Source: Oscillospiraceae bacterium (GTDB lineage Bacteria > Bacillota > Clostridia > Oscillospirales > Acutalibacteraceae). Taken from it: DNA of 64,000 nt. Below are positions 37,922 to 45,708 of the stretch, piece by piece. Under the pieces are notes generated by a model. The model did not search any database. It saw nothing but the letters and a program-made list of their open reading frames with translations, and was not told where the DNA came from. The number at the start of each line of letters is the position of its first letter. Position 1 is the first letter of the stretch. The position numbers were made by a program, and so were the translations under genes. Location of the stretch: NCBI GenBank assembly GCA_015066105.1, contig SVOY01000004.1:1-64000 (forward strand), written 5' to 3'.

Positions 37922-37957
37922 ATATTTAATTATGATAAAATGAGGAGGTATGCCTGT

Positions 37958-39085
37958 ATGGAAGCTTATCTTGACAACAGCGCCACCACTCCCCTTTGCA
38001 AAAGCGCAAGGGACGAAATGGTGAACGCAATAGAAAATATATGGGGCAATCCGTCCTCTCTTCACGAAAAGGGCATTGAAGCAGACCTGCTTCTGAAAAA
38101 CGCAAGAAAGACCCTTGCGGCTCTTCTCTCCTGCACGGAAAAGGAAATAATTTTCACCTCGGGTGGCACAGAAGGCAACAACCTTGCCGTTTTCGGTGCG
38201 GCCCACGCAGGCAGGCGAAGGGGCAACCGAATTATCACCTCGGCCGTTGAGCACCCGAGCGTGTCAAAGGCCTTTGACCGTCTTGAAGGCGAGGGCTTTG
38301 AGGTTATAAGAATCCCGACGGACAAAAAAGGCCTTGTTGACCTTACGGCTCTTGAAAACGCCGTAAATGAAAAAACGGTGCTTATCAGCATTATGGCAGT
38401 CAACAACGAGGTCGGCACCGTTGAGCCCTTTGAGGAATTATCAAAAATTGCAAAGTGCAAGGGCTCACCCGCCCTCATTCACGTTGACGCGGTGCAGGCC
38501 TTCGGCAAAATTCCCCTCACGCCGAAAAAGTGGGGCATTGACCTTATGACCGTAAGCTCACACAAAATCCACGGCCCCAAGGGCGTCGGTGCTGTTTTTG
38601 TAAAAGAGGGCACAAGGCTTTCACCCGTTGCCGCAGGCGGCGGACAGGAAAGAGATATCCGCCCGGGCACGGAGCCTATGCCTGCAATAGCCGGCTTTAC
38701 GGGTGCAATGAAGGAGCTTAAAATAAAGAACAGCCTTGCAGGGCTTACAGAGCTTCGCGACTATCTTGTGTCAGAGCTTGAAAAAAGAGATTTTGTAACA
38801 ATAAACTCACCCGAAAACGCTCTGCCCTATATCGTCAACCTTTCACTCAAAGGCTTAAGGAGCGAAACGGTGCTCAATCTGCTTTCAGATATGGAAATTT
38901 ACATTTCCTCGGGCTCAGCCTGCTCAAAGGGGCACAAAAGCCCGGTGCTGACGGCCATGGGACTTGATGACAGCATTATCGACTCCTCACTTCGCGTGAG
39001 TATGTCGCGCTTTACAACAAGGCAGCAGCTTGATTATTTCCTTCAGGGCATTGATACGGCGCAGAAGGTAATAAGGAAGAAATGA
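37958..39085 (+). CDS. Cysteine desulfurase (NifS/IscS type)
   Basis: The start at 37958 follows GAGGAGG. The 375-aa PLP enzyme removes sulfur from cysteine. Signatures: YLDNSATTPL (4-13), the PLP-lysine in SSHKIHGPKGVG (about 197-208), HVDAVQAFGK (about 174-183) and the active-site Cys in SSGSACSKGHKSPV (about 318-331). The partner gene thiI follows by about 80 bases, so this desulfurase probably supplies persulfide for 4-thiouridine synthesis in tRNA. Confidence 0.93.
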   Translation: MEAYLDNSATTPLCKSARDEMVNAIENIWGNPSSLHEKGIEADLLLKNARKTLAALLSCTEKEIIFTSGGTEGNNLAVFGAAHAGRRRGNRIITSAVEHPSVSKAFDRLEGEGFEVIRIPTDKKGLVDLTALENAVNEKTVLISIMAVNNEVGTVEPFEELSKIAKCKGSPALIHVDAVQAFGKIPLTPKKWGIDLMTVSSHKIHGPKGVGAVFVKEGTRLSPVAAGGGQERDIRPGTEPMPAIAGFTGAMKELKIKNSLAGLTELRDYLVSELEKRDFVTINSPENALPYIVNLSLKGLRSETVLNLLSDMEIYISSGSACSKGHKSPVLTAMGLDDSIIDSSLRVSMSRFTTRQQLDYFLQGIDTAQKVIRKK

Positions 39086-39166: not shown

Positions 39167-40339
39167 ATGAAAGAAGTTTTACTTATCAAAAACGGTGAAA
39201 TCGCCCTTAAGGGTCTCAACCGTTCAACCTTTGAGGATATACTCGTAAAAAACATACGCCGCAGACTTCTTGCTTCTGTGGGCAAGTTCACCTTCACAAA
39301 GTCACAGTCCACAATCATTGCAGAGGCTAACGATGAGGATGCCGACTTTGAGGCGGCCGTAGAAACGCTTAAGAAAATTTTCGGCATTGCCGCATTTTCA
39401 AGAGCCGCCGTATGCGAAAAGGATTTTGACGAGGTTAAAAGGGTAGCTCTCGATTATCTCGGTGACGAGCTCAGAGCCGTAAAAACCTTCAAGGTCAACG
39501 CAAAAAGAAGCGACAAGAAGTTCCCCATGACCTCACCGGAAATCTGCCGCGAGGTTGGTGCTCACCTTCTTCGCTCAATCCCCTCGCTGAAGGTTGACGT
39601 TCACAACCCCGATATTATCGTAACCGTTGAGGTGCGCGACAAAAACGTATTCATCCACGGCAATCAGATAAAGGGCGCAGGCGGTATGCCCGTCGGCTCG
39701 GCAGGCAGGGTGGCGCTCCTCGTTTCGGGCGGCATCGATTCTCCCGTTGCCGGCTGGATGATGTCCAAAAGAGGCCTGCAGCTTGACGCAATCCACTTTG
39801 CCGCACCGCCCTACACAAGCAAGCGTGCAGAAATGAAGGTGCACGACCTCGTTTCCATCGTTGCAAAATATTCGGGCAGAATAAACTTTGCCGTTGTCAA
39901 CTTCACGGAAATTCAGGAAGCAATAAAGGAGCACTGCCCCGAGGAGCTTTTTACAATCATTATGAGAAGACTTATGATGAAAATTGCGGTCCGCCTTGCA
40001 GAAAAGGACGGCTGCGGTGCCCTTGTAACCGGCGAGAGCCTCGGTCAGGTTGCCTCTCAGACTCTCGGCGCCATTGCCTGCACCGATGCGGCAGTTGATA
40101 TGCCCGTTTTCCGTCCCCTCATAGGTATGGACAAGGATGAAATTATCACAATCTCCCGTGCTATCGGAGCCTTTGAAACCTCCATTCTCCCCTATGAGGA
40201 TTGCTGCACCGTGTTCACACCCAAGCACCCGAGAACAAGACCCACTTTAAGGCTCATTGAAGAAGCTGAGGGCGCCTTTGATTTTTCAGAGATGATAGAC
40301 AGAGCGGTGGAAAACGTAAAATACGAGTGCGTTGATTAA
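39167..40339 (+). CDS. thiI: tRNA 4-thiouridine synthase ThiI
   Basis: This 390-aa protein adds sulfur to uridine-8 of tRNA. It has an N-terminal ferredoxin-like/THUMP region (about 1-165) and the PP-loop ATPase motif SGGIDSPVAGWM (about 186-197), with the family's GESLGQVASQT (about 287-297) and a Cys-containing YEDCCTVFTPKHP (about 343-355). There is no rhodanese domain, as is common in Firmicutes, so persulfide transfer must differ from the E. coli enzyme. It is transcribed with the upstream NifS-like gene. Confidence 0.95.
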   Translation: MKEVLLIKNGEIALKGLNRSTFEDILVKNIRRRLLASVGKFTFTKSQSTIIAEANDEDADFEAAVETLKKIFGIAAFSRAAVCEKDFDEVKRVALDYLGDELRAVKTFKVNAKRSDKKFPMTSPEICREVGAHLLRSIPSLKVDVHNPDIIVTVEVRDKNVFIHGNQIKGAGGMPVGSAGRVALLVSGGIDSPVAGWMMSKRGLQLDAIHFAAPPYTSKRAEMKVHDLVSIVAKYSGRINFAVVNFTEIQEAIKEHCPEELFTIIMRRLMMKIAVRLAEKDGCGALVTGESLGQVASQTLGAIACTDAAVDMPVFRPLIGMDKDEIITISRAIGAFETSILPYEDCCTVFTPKHPRTRPTLRLIEEAEGAFDFSEMIDRAVENVKYECVD

Positions 40340-40390: not shown

Positions 40391-40424
40391 TATTAACTTG
40401 AAAACTGCGGAAAGGAGAGGTCTT

Positions 40425-41729
40425 ATGAACTGTGAGCTTATAAGCGTCGGCACGGAAATACTTTTGGGCGATATCGTAAACACAAACGCTCACTTTCTTT
40501 CACGTCAGCTTGCAGAGCTTGGCATAAATGTGCTTTTTCAGTGCACCGTGGGCGACAACAAAGGCCGTCTTCTTACCGCGCTTGATACAGCCTTCGGCCG
40601 CAGTGACCTTATTATTCTCACGGGCGGTCTCGGCCCCACACCCGACGATATGACAAAAGAGGTGTGCGCCGAATTTATGGGTAAGGAGCTTGTTCTTCAC
40701 GGGCCCTCGCTGAAAAAGATTGAAGACTTTTTCGCACTCAAAAAAATTGCAATGCCCGAAAGCAACAAAAAGCAGGCCCTTATGCCCGAGGCTTCGATAA
40801 TACTCGAAAACGCTAACGGCACCGCGCCCGGCTGCATTATGGAAAAGGACGAAAAGGCCGTTATCATTCTCCCCGGCCCGCCCAAGGAAATGATTCCCAT
40901 GTTCCTTGACGGCGTAAGGCCCTATCTCAAAAAGCTTTCACATGAAACAATCTTCTCTCACAATATACGCACCTTCGGCATAGGTGAAAGTGCAATGACC
41001 GAGCTTGTAAGCGACCTGCTTGAAAGCGAAAACCCCACCGTTGCCCCTTACGCAAAAAACGGCGAGGCCCTTTTAAGAGTAACGGCAAAGGCAGGAAGCA
41101 AGAAAGAGGCAGAGGCTCTGCTGACTCCCCTTATCGGTGAGATAAAAAAACGCCTCGGCTCTTACATCTACGGCATTGACCTTGAAAGCGTTGAAGAAGC
41201 CGCCGTGGCCCTGCTTAAAGAAAAAAAGCTGACCGTTGCCTTTGCGGAATCCTGCACGGGCGGCCTTTGCGCCAAAAGAGTTACGGATATATCGGGAGCC
41301 TCCTCGGTATTTCACTGCGGCGTGGTTTCCTATTCAAACGAAATCAAGCACAAGCTTCTCGGTGTAAGTGAAGAGAGCCTTGAAAAGCACGGTGCCGTGA
41401 GTGCCCTTGTTGCGGCAGAAATGGCTCTTGGCGTAAAAAAGCTGTCGGGTGCTGACTTCGGCGTTTCCGTAACGGGAATGGCTGGCCCCGAAAGCGATGA
41501 CCCCCGCATCCCCGTGGGCACAATTTTTATTGCCGTAACAGACGGCGACAGACTTTATCTCAAAAAGCTCGCCACGGGCCACTCCGGCAAGGATTGCCGA
41601 GACTACAACAAATTTGTAAGCGCATCAAACGCTCTCAACGAGCTTCGCCTTTGCGCTTTAAGCTACCCTGAAAAAAGGTCAGAGGGTACAGATATAAGAG
41701 AATTCACAGGCTCATTCAAGGAGTTATAA
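40425..41729 (+). CDS. cinA: CinA-family protein (nicotinamide-nucleotide amidase/ADP-ribose pyrophosphatase type)
   Basis: This 434-aa protein starts at 40425 behind AAAGGAGAGG. The N-terminal molybdopterin-binding-like (MoCF) domain shows CELISVGTEILLGDIVNTN (3-21), TGGLGPTPDDMTKE (about 73-86) and LPGPPKEMIP (about 152-161). The C-terminal CinA domain has FAESCTGGLCAKRVTDISGA (about 273-292) and GVSVTGMAGPES (about 346-357). CinA proteins repair or recycle pyridine nucleotides and are linked to competence in some bacteria. The next two genes follow without gaps: a sortase, and a protein whose N-terminal half appears to be a degenerate copy of this one. Confidence 0.92.
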   Translation: MNCELISVGTEILLGDIVNTNAHFLSRQLAELGINVLFQCTVGDNKGRLLTALDTAFGRSDLIILTGGLGPTPDDMTKEVCAEFMGKELVLHGPSLKKIEDFFALKKIAMPESNKKQALMPEASIILENANGTAPGCIMEKDEKAVIILPGPPKEMIPMFLDGVRPYLKKLSHETIFSHNIRTFGIGESAMTELVSDLLESENPTVAPYAKNGEALLRVTAKAGSKKEAEALLTPLIGEIKKRLGSYIYGIDLESVEEAAVALLKEKKLTVAFAESCTGGLCAKRVTDISGASSVFHCGVVSYSNEIKHKLLGVSEESLEKHGAVSALVAAEMALGVKKLSGADFGVSVTGMAGPESDDPRIPVGTIFIAVTDGDRLYLKKLATGHSGKDCRDYNKFVSASNALNELRLCALSYPEKRSEGTDIREFTGSFKEL

Positions 41730-41730
41730 A

Positions 41731-43479
41731 ATGAAAAATATTTATCAGGACGATTTTTCCTCAGAAATCCCCGTCAGCGATAAGGCCGTTTCAGAAAAGG
41801 GTACGGCCCCGCAAAAGCCCGTCCGCCCCGCCAGACACGCACCTCCGCCGATTAAAAGGTCGGTAATTACAAATAAAAATGATGCGCCCCCCGAAGCCGG
41901 TGCACAGACCGTGCCCTACGGACAGCCGGGCTTTTATCCTCAGCCCGTTTTCTATCAGCCCGATGCCAACGGTCAGCCCGTGCCCGTTTTTTATGCACCC
42001 GTTGCGCCACAGCAGTTTGCACCCTACACTCAGCCGACGGTTTCACCTGCGGCACCTCAGTCCGAGGCCGCAACCAACGATGCGGGCACAAGAGTGCTTT
42101 TTCAGAGTGCAGACTTTGACAAAAAGGATGACTTGCCAAGGCAAGACGGTTTCGGCCAAAGCAGCTTTTCCGGAAGCATTGACCTTACGGAAATCAACCT
42201 TGCTTCAAAAAAGCGCGCCCCCGCCCCCAAGGGCACCGAGGGCAGCTTCAGGGTTGACGAGATGGAAATCGGCACCTACGAGTTCAACATAATGACCGCA
42301 GGCCAGGGCGCAAAGGCAAAAAGCGTGCTCACCCCCGCAGAGGAGGCCGAGCAGGATGCTCTTCATGAGGAAAGCTACATAGACGAAATTTACGAGGACA
42401 GCTTTGAAGAAGAGGAAGAATACGACGAGCAGGATACAGCCGACGAAAAGGCGGAAAGCAAGCTCCCCTCAAGAGAAATTATCCGCCGCTCGGTGCTTGC
42501 CGTTGCGATAGTTGCAATAGTAATTGCAGCCGCAACGCTCATAAACGAATACCGTCTCCACCTGCAGAACAAAAGCCTTATGCAGGATATGTCAGAGCTG
42601 ATTATAACCGAACCTTCAACAGAGACCACAACACAGGGCAACAAAAAGCCGGACAAAGGTTCCGACAAGGAAATTCCCACCACTCTCCCGCTTCAGGAAA
42701 GACCCCTTAGCGTTGAGGAGCAGTGGGAGGTGCTCAGGCAGGAAAATCCCGACATCACCTTCCCCGAGGGGCTTCAGCTCAAATATGCAAAGCTCTACGC
42801 ACAGAATACGGACTTTGTAGGCTACCTCAAGGCAGAGGGCTCAGAGCTTGACACGCCCATTGTTCAGGGTGAGGATGACGAAGAATACGTTGAAAAGAAT
42901 TTTTACGGTGAAAGCACAAAATACGCCTGCCCCTTTGTAACCTATACAAACAAGATGCTGCCCCTTGACGGCAACACGGTCATTTACGGCCACCGTATGA
43001 GAGACGGCTCCATTTTCGGCACCCTTGACCAGTACAAAACCCTTGAGGGCTACAAAAAGGCTCCCGTTATTTCCTTTAACACTCTTTATAACGACTATAA
43101 TTTCAAAATTATCGCCGCAATGATTACAAACATTGACCCCAAGGACGATAACGGCTACGTATTCACCTATTACTGGACAAATCTCAACAACGAGCTCAAC
43201 ACCACGGCCTATCTCAATCAGCTGAGCCAGCGTTCACTTTACGATACGGGCGTTGACGTGCTCCCGACGGATAAGCTGCTTACACTTTCCACCTGCTGTA
43301 AGGATTTTGAAAACGCACGCTTCGTTATCGTTGCAAGGCTTGTACGTCCCGGTGAAAGCACCGAGGTTGACACAAGCCTCGCCGTTGAAAATCCCAACCC
43401 AAGATATCCGCAGGCTTACTACGATGAAAAAGGCGAAGAAAACCCCTTTGCCAACGCATATAAATGGGAGATTTCCTAA
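41731..43479 (+). CDS. Class B sortase with long cytoplasmic N-terminal region
   Basis: This 582-aa protein is far longer than usual sortases (about 220-250 aa). Residues 1-250 are cytoplasmic, disordered, Pro/Gln-rich (QPVPVFYAP-type repeats, about 70-110) then very acidic (about 215-245). A membrane helix lies at about 252-273 and a Thr-rich linker follows. The sortase domain has the catalytic His in VIYGHRM (about 419-425), Cys in LTLSTCCKD (about 512-520) and Arg in FVIVARLVR (about 526-534), the class B pattern. It is 1 base after cinA and 15 before the SpoIID-type gene. A substrate with a sorting signal is not evident here. Confidence 0.9.
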   Translation: MKNIYQDDFSSEIPVSDKAVSEKGTAPQKPVRPARHAPPPIKRSVITNKNDAPPEAGAQTVPYGQPGFYPQPVFYQPDANGQPVPVFYAPVAPQQFAPYTQPTVSPAAPQSEAATNDAGTRVLFQSADFDKKDDLPRQDGFGQSSFSGSIDLTEINLASKKRAPAPKGTEGSFRVDEMEIGTYEFNIMTAGQGAKAKSVLTPAEEAEQDALHEESYIDEIYEDSFEEEEEYDEQDTADEKAESKLPSREIIRRSVLAVAIVAIVIAAATLINEYRLHLQNKSLMQDMSELIITEPSTETTTQGNKKPDKGSDKEIPTTLPLQERPLSVEEQWEVLRQENPDITFPEGLQLKYAKLYAQNTDFVGYLKAEGSELDTPIVQGEDDEEYVEKNFYGESTKYACPFVTYTNKMLPLDGNTVIYGHRMRDGSIFGTLDQYKTLEGYKKAPVISFNTLYNDYNFKIIAAMITNIDPKDDNGYVFTYYWTNLNNELNTTAYLNQLSQRSLYDTGVDVLPTDKLLTLSTCCKDFENARFVIVARLVRPGESTEVDTSLAVENPNPRYPQAYYDEKGEENPFANAYKWEIS

Positions 43480-43494
43480 AAGTTGGAGGTTAAA

Positions 43495-45708
43495 ATGATA
43501 AGACTATTTACTTTGGATGACATTTCAGCATTTTCCTCAGATACCGTTTATAAAATCGGTCTTGCCGCAGAGCCCTTCGGTCTTCGCGACGAAAACGTCA
43601 CATCCTTCCCCTCGCGCGATGAGCTTTGCAACGAGGCTCTTGTTGCAACACAAAACGGCGACTATGTAATTGTTGCCTGCGAGTGCAAGGAATATAACTC
43701 CTTTAAAAGAGAGCTTATTTCAAGGCTTCTTCTCGAGGAATACGAAAGCGATGAAATCAAGGACCTTATCGCTCTGCACGCAGGTGAGGACATTGCAGAC
43801 ATTGACCTTACGGGTCACAGCCTTGTCCCCCGCGGAAGCATTTATCACTTTACCGCAGACGGCCTTTACTGCGGCTTTACCGCAGAGGTGCTTCACGGTA
43901 GACTCACCTGTCTGCCCCTTGACTTCCTTCGCATTGACGAGGCTCTTACAAGCCTTGTTGAGGATGTGCTTGAGCCGCTTGACGCACTTTCAAGGGGTGA
44001 AAGACCTCCCATAAGAATGCCCGAGGCAGATATTCTCACCCACGTTGAGCAGATGGTTGAAAGCCTTTCCTCCTCAGAGCTTCGCCTTGCCCTTGCAACC
44101 GGCGAGGCAACCATGTGGGTTTACAACCTTTATGACAAGGTGCCCGCGCTTACGGACAGAATCAGCTTTGTTGAGGTTGTTGACGAGGACGGAGAAGCCC
44201 TTCAGGAGGCCACTGCCGAAACCGAATCCGTTAGAATTATCCGCCACGCCCGTGAGGCAATGTCAAATTCGGGTGCAGATATGGGCGGTGCCGTTTCGGA
44301 AATCTATTCAACGGAAAACGAAAACGGCAAAACCCTTTACTTTGCTTATGCCGCCATTGTTGACAAGGGCACCGCAAAGGCAAAAAAAATCACCACAACC
44401 AACCCAGAGGACCTTACGGCAATTCTCCCCCACGCACTGAGCGTGCTCACCTCACTTATCAAGGCAAAGGCAGAAAAATCCCTCGAGGCTCTTTCTGCCG
44501 CAAAAAGGCTTTACGAGGACGACGTTGACACAGAGCCCTCAATGCCCACACCGCCCGCAAAGGACAAGCCCCTTTCAAAAAATATGATGATAGGTGCAAT
44601 CTGCGCTCTCGCACTTGCCGTTATCATTCCCGTTATTCTTGTTGTAAGCCTTGTAAGCAAGCCCGAGCCCACAACAACCACTCTGCCCCCCATTTCCTCC
44701 ACAACAACCACGGCTCCCCCTCAGACTACAACGGGCAACAACATTTTCAGCCCCACGGACAATCAGGTTACGGTTAACCCCGCTGTTACCGAGCCCGTAG
44801 CTCCCGACGTTTCCGTATCGGACACCTCTGCGCCCTCATCTTCAACAAGCGGCGACTTCACCTTCTACGTTTTCGGCTACGGCCACGGCGTTGGTATGAG
44901 CCAGACGGGTGCAAACTACCTTGCAGGCCTCGGCTGGAGCTGGGCAGATATTCTCGCCCACTACTATTATGATGCAGAGGGCAAAACCTACATCGTTACG
45001 GGCGAAAAGTATCCCGATAAAATCACCTACGAGGGCAAGCAGTACTCCACAAGAGAATATCTTGCAAGAGCCCTTGAGGCAGAAATGCCCTCATCATCAA
45101 ACCTTGAGGCCCTTAAGGCTCAGGTGGTTGCCCTTTATACCTTTGCAAGATACTACAACGCAGAGGCTGTTGCAGACAGAAGCCCCGTGTTCACCGCAAA
45201 GCTTACAAAAAGCTCACACGCCTTCCTTGCAGAAAGCAAAACTCCCACACCCAACACCTATGCGGCCGTTGATGCAATTATTGCAATCGGCCCCTATATT
45301 GAAAATAACGGCGTAACCGCCCTTACCCCCTACCACGCTATGAGTGCAGGTAAAACAACCTCCTACTACAACTGCTGGGGCAAGGACAGCGGCACAAGCG
45401 TTTCATATCTCAGCGGTGCAAGAACCTCAATAGGCGACTACTATGACGAAAACTTCAAGTCAACGGTTACAATCTCAAGCTCAGAGCTTCGCGCACTCGC
45501 CTCAGAGCAGGGCATTGAGCTTTCCGGTGACCCCGCAACCTGGCTGAGCATCATCAGCCACGACGCCGCCGTAAGAGAGGATATCGGCTACGTTTCCTCA
45601 ATCAAGGTCGGCAGCAAGGTTATGACGGGTAACGATTTCAGAATCAAGCTTCTCGGCGGCAGAATCCGCTCTCACTGCTTTGCAATTACCTATACCCCCA
45701 CTGCTTGA
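43495..45708 (+). CDS. Fusion: degenerate CinA-like region, membrane helix, circularly permuted SpoIID/LytB domain
   Basis: The start at 43495 follows GGAGG; 737 aa. Residues 1-340 appear homologous to the neighbouring CinA along both domains: SLVPRGSIYHF aligns with ALMPEASIILE, and SGADMGGAVSEIYS with SGADFGVSVTGMAG. The ESCTGG and TGGLGPT motifs are lost, so it should be inactive. A membrane helix lies at about 362-386, then a Thr/Pro/Ser linker. The outside part is SpoIID/LytB-like, but the GYGHGVGMSQTG motif (about 461-472), normally C-terminal, precedes the AEMPSS...LEALKAQ motif (about 529-542). The protein ends where standard SpoIID would continue into GHGVGMSQ. SpoIID enzymes are lytic transglycosylases acting on peptidoglycan. 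Confidence 0.85.
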   Translation: MIRLFTLDDISAFSSDTVYKIGLAAEPFGLRDENVTSFPSRDELCNEALVATQNGDYVIVACECKEYNSFKRELISRLLLEEYESDEIKDLIALHAGEDIADIDLTGHSLVPRGSIYHFTADGLYCGFTAEVLHGRLTCLPLDFLRIDEALTSLVEDVLEPLDALSRGERPPIRMPEADILTHVEQMVESLSSSELRLALATGEATMWVYNLYDKVPALTDRISFVEVVDEDGEALQEATAETESVRIIRHAREAMSNSGADMGGAVSEIYSTENENGKTLYFAYAAIVDKGTAKAKKITTTNPEDLTAILPHALSVLTSLIKAKAEKSLEALSAAKRLYEDDVDTEPSMPTPPAKDKPLSKNMMIGAICALALAVIIPVILVVSLVSKPEPTTTTLPPISSTTTTAPPQTTTGNNIFSPTDNQVTVNPAVTEPVAPDVSVSDTSAPSSSTSGDFTFYVFGYGHGVGMSQTGANYLAGLGWSWADILAHYYYDAEGKTYIVTGEKYPDKITYEGKQYSTREYLARALEAEMPSSSNLEALKAQVVALYTFARYYNAEAVADRSPVFTAKLTKSSHAFLAESKTPTPNTYAAVDAIIAIGPYIENNGVTALTPYHAMSAGKTTSYYNCWGKDSGTSVSYLSGARTSIGDYYDENFKSTVTISSSELRALASEQGIELSGDPATWLSIISHDAAVREDIGYVSSIKVGSKVMTGNDFRIKLLGGRIRSHCFAITYTPTA

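Follow-up and report, generated by a model that had tools for sequence, protein, structure and literature searches.

Background

CinA is composed of a COG1058 (MoCF) ADP-ribose pyrophosphatase domain, a KH domain and a PncC nicotinamide mononucleotide (NMN) deamidase domain. Its chemistry is known and its physiology is scattered (nicotinamide adenine dinucleotide (NAD) recycling, competence and drug tolerance). It has been reported that CinA is a dimer in which each chain contributes parts to the active sites of its partner (PMC4246079, PMC5384747), and that in T. thermophilus CinA the KH domain closes the COG1058 site of the partner (PMC4246079). Here, we analyzed a 64,000-nucleotide stretch of an Oscillospiraceae bacterium (assembly GCA_015066105.1, contig SVOY01000004.1, positions 1 to 64,000; hereafter the window), in which a gene on the forward strand (43495-45708; 737 residues from the ATG at 43495) encodes a dead homologue of CinA followed by a hydrophobic segment and a circularly permuted SpoIID-type domain. 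Like CinA, this protein has both catalytic domains in order within its N-terminal 340 residues; unlike CinA, it lacks the KH domain and, at the aligned sites, the catalytic residues, contains the hydrophobic segment and is joined to a putative wall enzyme.

The other parts of the locus also have described relatives. The C-terminal domain resembles SpoIID/LytB lytic transglycosylases in its profile match and in its retained catalytic Glu, but differs from them in being permuted and in being attached to a dead CinA, presumably across the membrane. SleC, a spore cortex-lytic enzyme (PDB 9h68), is a weak relative of this domain (profile E-value 0.00012; Foldseek 0.052) with segments in normal order, whereas the window domain is permuted. 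The upstream gene has the His, Cys and Arg set of class B sortases (TIGR03064), and in sister lineages a domain of this kind is fused to CinA; these CinA-sortase fusions, and fusions of dead sortases to SpoIID, are unlike known class B sortases. In the open-access literature we found no paper joining CinA, sortase and SpoIID, although most subscription papers lay outside this scope and absence is therefore unproven. The same literature held no paper on CinA with class B sortase or on SpoIID with circular permutation, and nothing relevant on CinA-sortase domain architecture or on an inactive sortase with SpoIID. The individual parts of the system are known.

Homology of the N-terminal half to CinA

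The open reading frame (ORF) opens at a TTG (43483-45708, forward strand, 741 residues). The 737-residue protein read from the ATG begins with a soluble region of ~345 residues, followed by a single hydrophobic segment found by hydropathy scan and presumed to be transmembrane (44581..44649), a Ser/Thr/Pro-rich linker seen in the translation and presumed to be extracellular (44650..44847), and the SpoIID-type domain. The original prediction, made from the nucleotide sequence, held that residues 1-340 track the intact CinA that lies two genes upstream. We compared a profile of 33 related N-terminal domains with a profile of 28 CinA proteins and found homology across both catalytic domains (E-value 2.3e-22 over 329 columns; this and the following profile-profile values are pairwise and not database E-values). 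The alignment was collinear over the COG1058/MoCF and then the NMN-deamidase domains, skipping the KH domain, which is missing in the dead copy, and it contained the three residue pairings quoted in that prediction. When the family profile was divided, each half matched its own CinA domain (MoCF, 1.1e-14; deamidase C-domain, 1.1e-13), in order, whereas pairings with the wrong domain gave 0.028 or worse and the two halves gave 0.28 and 0.028 against KH.

Controls were far from these values. The best of 40 column-shuffled CinA profiles reached 0.041, the reversed profile 0.38, and five unrelated families compared with the N-domain profile 0.012 or worse. On its own the window sequence gave 0.024 against CinA, no better than unrelated families, and the eight closest sequences gave 0.0014; 25 distant relatives gave 7.2e-22, and the same relatives matched the close group at 4.4e-45. 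Thus, the strong CinA signal is supplied by the distant relatives. Direct BLASTP against the CinA at 40398-41729 yielded no match (best E-value 0.42), and searches of residues 1-360 against Pfam, NCBIfam and, as a single sequence, the PDB were empty. Whole-genome searches with a HMMER profile of the N-terminal domains did recover CinA proteins (4.6e-14 in genome G053; 1.0e-7 for the window's own CinA). A fold search with the predicted model, itself weak, placed CinA at ranks 1-10, and MoaB2/MogA folds also matched the MoCF half. The possibility that the resemblance is due to chance or merely to a shared alpha/beta fold is negligible and is in effect refuted.

Loss of active sites under purifying selection

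We mapped the active-site residues given in PMC4246079 and PMC5384747 through the profile alignment. The sites tested were E12, D45, D76 and E156 of COG1058 and S31, Y58, K63 and R145 of PncC; column 395, whose late Arg is invariant, was assumed to hold R145, the phosphate Arg. The window protein kept the CinA residue at none of 18 aligned sites that are conserved in 27 or 28 of the 28 CinA proteins. In its dead COG1058/MoCF half (43495..44004, about residues 1-170), Tyr stands at the Mg-binding Asp-76 site, and all 33 family members have Tyr or Phe there; the E156 site is Arg in 24 of 33 and Glu in none. In the dead NMN-deamidase half (44026..44484, about residues 178-330), ATGE stands in place of ESCT, Tyr-58 and Lys-63 have no aligned column in the dead family, and the late invariant Arg site is Glu in 30 of 33. 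At other sites the CinA residue was found in a few of the 33 members (Glu at E12 in 4, Asp at D45 in 5, Ser at S31 in 5). Among 51 aligned invariant CinA columns, there are only five at which 16 or more of the 33 members still have the CinA residue, and four of these are Pro, Gly, Gly and Pro of COG1058. This site census agrees with the earlier observation that ESCTGG and TGGLGPT are missing.

The lost catalytic sites together with the retained domain order therefore indicate a CinA homologue that is not an active CinA; judged from its sequence, the N-terminal half is dead as CinA. The ratio of nonsynonymous to synonymous rates (dN/dS) was 0.105 for the dead half and 0.10 for CinA in one pair of same-genus genomes, and 0.164 for the dead half between the window and region L004; synonymous divergence exceeded 1 in these comparisons and the values are rough. 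Selection on the dead half thus equals that on CinA, which argues that it is not decaying. The predicted combination of a dead CinA paralogue, a membrane segment and a peptidoglycan-type domain is supported by the homology, the lost sites, the hydrophobic segment and the SpoIID Glu described below. From this layout the dead CinA half would lie on the cytoplasmic side.

A circularly permuted SpoIID domain

A profile of 25 permuted domains aligned to C. difficile SpoIID (5i1t) with an E-value of 4.8e-43 in two blocks: profile columns 53-248 matched residues 55-269 and columns 2-46 matched residues 283-327, and a single-sequence alignment gave the same order. Thus, the domain is circularly permuted, with the HGVGMSQ segment leading and the core after it. 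In the window, the segment with GYGHGVGMSQ, which corresponds to the C-terminus of normal SpoIID, occupies 44848..44985, and the catalytic core, which comes first in normal SpoIID, occupies 44986..45705 (PF08486, 2e-7). The profile matched 5i1t, 5txu and 4rwr with E-values of 4.8e-43 to 2.2e-37. The Glu of EAEMP (codon 45082..45084) aligned to residue 101 of the 5txu chain and was kept in all 25 permuted domains examined; one report describes E101 of C. difficile SpoIID as catalytic, its change to Ala having abolished activity (PMC6221140). With both core and HGVGMSQ segment present, the protein scored 91.1 bits against TIGR02669 (cut-off 83.3) and 80.3 bits against the sporulation SpoIID equivalog TIGR02870, below the cut-off of 234.75. 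The window genome contains two further SpoIID genes, of which one, encoding 321 residues, is in normal order. The permuted SpoIID is probably an active lytic transglycosylase.

We then built a midpoint-rooted tree of 49 SpoIID domains, 48 of them of this system, in which permuted domains were re-ordered. The 29 domains from dead-CinA loci clustered (91/90, not starred), and four of the 29 had normal order, three from genus g98 and one from genome G267. The latter (region L111) was sister to the permuted domain of G194 at 99/96, within starred permuted groups, and the starred branches require at least two changes of segment order. In a BLASTP comparison of G194 and G267, a 48-residue segment located at opposite ends of the domain was 73% identical and the core 48% identical. 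The latest order change, in G267, seems from these relationships to be a return to normal order. These observations on segment order concern 44848-45705 of the window, 4854-7247 of L111 and 5208-7601 of L120.

The gene cluster in related genomes

We collected 59 regions with a dead CinA, which comprised the window, L002-L004, 40 mostly best-scoring genomes, genome G048 and 14 more; L005 is a repeat of the window, and the fetched regions covered 54 of the other genomes with the dead gene. In 58 of 59 regions (44/45 and 14/14 in the two sets), a sortase gene precedes the dead-CinA gene on the same strand, and the lone miss, L128, was a contig start. The cinA gene was in the cluster in 50 of 59 regions (40/45 and 10/14); the misses lay at contig ends (L107, L128, G013, G140 and G060), in genus g76 (three genomes) or in G056. 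Sortase is thus a more constant neighbour than CinA. To call this gene cluster an operon we would have to infer it.

The 61 dead-CinA genes in these regions differed in what follows the dead half. A permuted SpoIID was joined to 25 of them and a normal-order SpoIID to four, nine were followed by a separate permuted ORF, and one was cut by a contig end. The nine genomes with separate adjacent dead-CinA and permuted SpoIID ORFs are represented by L134 (6323-8972), L220-L225, L227 and L228. Tandem dead-CinA genes with SpoIID on the second only were seen in L112 (5487-9385) and L117 (5326-9236). In region L222 of genome G056, the dead CinA is accompanied by two sortases and by a permuted SpoIID as an ORF.

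The deamidase residues Ser, Tyr, Lys, Thr and Arg were intact in 77 of 79 cluster CinA copies; of the two exceptions, L113 is cut by a contig end and L132 has Ser for Thr. All four COG1058 residues were intact in 26 of 41 unfused CinA copies, and the other 15 consisted of 13 copies without a COG1058 domain, the cut L113 copy, and L203, which has lost some sites. A deamidase-only CinA beside a two-half dead copy was observed in L102, L105, L106, L110, L114, L115, L118 and L121, and also in L125, L126, L129, L131, L132, L221, L224, L225 and L227-L230.

In the window, the conserved block is on the forward strand and opens with a cysteine desulfurase gene, presumably iscS-like (37940..39085), followed by a gene that we take to be thiI-like (39167..40339); both had BLASTP matches in most related regions. 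The CinA gene (40398..41729) encodes all three domains (PF00994, 2.9e-36; KH, PF18146, 5.8e-28; PF02464, 1.1e-48) with catalytic residues present in the residue census. The class B sortase gene (41731..43479) encodes an N-terminal extension and the His, Cys and Arg residues, and scored 140.1 bits against TIGR03064, just under the cut-off of 153.75. The dead-CinA gene closes the block.

CinA-sortase fusions and dead sortases in sister lineages

In a 150-genome sample, a CinA frame longer than 600 residues was present in 37 genomes, all of which were fetched. A sortase domain was found in the CinA frame in 37 of 37, although L180 was only marginal and a few were cut by contig ends. The fused sortase is a class B domain (for example, in L170, L171, L182, L189 and L209). 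The presence of CinA and sortase in one frame is therefore a rosetta-stone sign of joint work. Deamidase residues were intact in all 38 fusions (the 37 and G072). In seven regions (L172, L176, L177, L178, L181, L192 and L200), the fusion polypeptide continued into a normal-order SpoIID.

In twelve fusion genomes, a second gene reads sortase-SpoIID. A profile of the twelve parts ahead of the sortase matched the CinA COG1058/MoCF domain at 2.8e-16 and the deamidase domain at 0.61; GGLGPT was absent in 12 of 12, and in L175 no COG1058-like domain was seen in the 123 residues ahead of the sortase. Among 19 sortases located ahead of SpoIID, the His/Cys/Arg set was lost in 17, one ends in a gap, and that of L172 is intact. 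In the other 95 of 114 sortase domains, 83 were intact, 10 were not (one in Arg only) and two were cut; sortase matches below 60 bits (L168, at a contig end, and L180) carry no catalytic letters. The dead sortases ahead of SpoIID were in L176, L177, L178, L181, L192 and L200, and further in L166, L167, L175, L182, L184-L186, L190, L191, L194 and L196. There is thus an apparent pseudosortase lineage joined to SpoIID. Taken together with the CinA copies, these losses show a recurring pattern, in which a dead and an intact version of one domain are found next to each other.

Where CinA, dead sortase and SpoIID form one polypeptide (L176, L178, L181 and L192), an intact sortase lies upstream of thiI in the usual place of iscS, which may sit outside the fetched stretch. 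We also considered mutual exclusion of fused CinA and full-length dead CinA: a fused CinA was present in none of 33 genomes with the dead gene versus 37 of 102 others (Fisher p 7e-6; tables compiled manually; dead-gene threshold 1e-24; 0/34 versus 37/101 when G048, which falls below it, is counted). Because these genomes share ancestry and those with a fusion often have a COG1058-like part in the second gene, we rejected this claim and regard the exclusion as a description of two layouts only.

Distribution and sporulation

A dead CinA was detected in 68 of 300 family genomes, including that of the window (E-value below 1e-24, a threshold chosen here; counted manually; weak matches were listed in part). 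Of 147 genomes drawn from the order, the window genome alone carried it. Two further families of the order also have CinA-sortase fusions (L209 and L213), and the matches listed for 196 class genomes (a list that gives part of the matches of 173 genomes) include no CinA frame longer than 532 residues. Relatives include metagenome genomes from goat cecum and roe deer rectum.

Spo0A was found in 133 of 150 family genomes. An initial count by frame length (14/14 versus 11/22) had suggested that SpoIID is kept only in sporulators. This claim was weakened on recount, because eight genomes counted as lacking SpoIID have it as a separate next ORF (seen in the 14 further regions). In the recount, where SpoIID was either joined or adjacent, 21 of 24 genomes had a strong Spo0A match, and where there was no SpoIID, 5 of 11 did (p 0.015). 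This count excludes G014, which is at a contig end, and G063, whose region was not fetched, and treats a weak Spo0A match in G107 as absent. In the 97%-complete genome G056, SpoIID is present and Spo0A gave no match. The association of SpoIID beside the dead CinA with Spo0A is loose and only a lead.

Proposed role and alternative explanations

Our best explanation, to which we assign a probability of about 0.4, is that a pseudo-CinA/permuted-SpoIID membrane protein serves a CinA-sortase-SpoIID assembly, perhaps by pairing with CinA. The protein would be a type II membrane protein with a CinA pseudoenzyme inside and a permuted SpoIID lytic transglycosylase outside. Together with the class B sortase and the CinA from its gene cluster, the pseudo-CinA part would form a membrane assembly, in which it would most likely pair with that CinA. 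Such pairing may tether the NMN deamidase to the sortase and to the domain that cuts the wall, and couple pyridine-nucleotide turnover inside to wall processing outside. This model is proposed because the dead, anchored copy stays clustered with CinA and sortase and because CinA and sortase are fused elsewhere; the topology, the pairing, the lytic activity and the direction of the signal are what we infer. Of the nucleotide-sensing and scaffold roles first proposed, a scaffold or partner is favoured over a free sensor by the gene cluster and by the fusions of CinA to sortase.

Several observations weigh against this explanation. In genus g76, cinA is located outside the cluster, and G056 has a dead copy and no PF02464 match anywhere; the less complete genomes G060 (82%) and G140 (56%) likewise have a dead copy and no PF02464 match. 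The dead copy occurs without a CinA deamidase in these last three genomes and, therefore, pairing with CinA cannot be general. The neighbouring CinA consists of the deamidase domain only in 20 of 59 regions, and the COG1058 residues were intact in just 22 of 38 CinA-sortase fusions; compared with the 38 of 38 for the deamidase, this implies that the deamidase is the part kept working. No SpoIID was found in or beside 22 of the 61 dead-CinA genes, so lysis is not the constant part. Besides, the dead copy is without KH, the lid on the partner's site, and both AlphaFold models were weak (pLDDT confidence scores of 55.8 and 62.8).

Some of the same observations would be accommodated by other roles. 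The dead half could be a cytoplasmic domain retained by inheritance, which would act for the sortase, or for protein stability or oligomerisation, independently of CinA; it would derive from a duplicated CinA-sortase-SpoIID unit whose second copy lost its enzymes. This view, which we hold to be doubtful, agrees with sortase being the most constant neighbour, with the absence of a CinA deamidase in G056, and with the second genes of sister lineages, which resemble stages of such a process (a COG1058-like part, a dead sortase and SpoIID); however, selection equal to that on CinA and new fixed residues at the former active sites go beyond the need of a mere foot. Somewhat less probable is a stand-alone ligand sensor that binds a nucleotide without hydrolysis and signals through the helix to SpoIID or sortase. 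Such a sensor would account for the genomes with a dead copy and no CinA deamidase, and it is in line with the strong purifying selection and with the new conserved residues at catalytic positions, some of them charge-reversed (Arg at the E156 site and Glu at the late Arg site); yet the residues that bind Mg and phosphate have been lost, no column aligns with Y58 or K63 and the KH lid is missing. The same conserved residues might be read as a new enzyme on the CinA scaffold with another substrate, but no known catalytic set is apparent among them, and Gly, Pro, Ala, Leu and Phe make up most of the conserved positions; we consider this very improbable.

In a more far-reaching reading, one may imagine a transmembrane machine of a single family, in which CinA and dead CinA couple pyridine-nucleotide turnover to sortase action and SpoIID wall cutting, intact and dead sortases do so in sister lineages, the NAD cycle gates wall remodelling, and the SpoIID order has flipped more than once. 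We regard this broader proposal as unlikely. NMN and ADP-ribose are by-products of DNA ligation and NAD use. The attachment of a dead CinA to a putative wall-cutting protein, whose gene neighbours an intact-looking CinA and a sortase, suggests a link between metabolism inside the cell and remodelling of the wall outside. If the assembly explanation is true, NAD recycling would be tied to wall remodelling across a family of Clostridia, CinA and sortase would join the known pseudoenzymes, and SpoIID would offer natural circular permutants, one of them apparently reversed.
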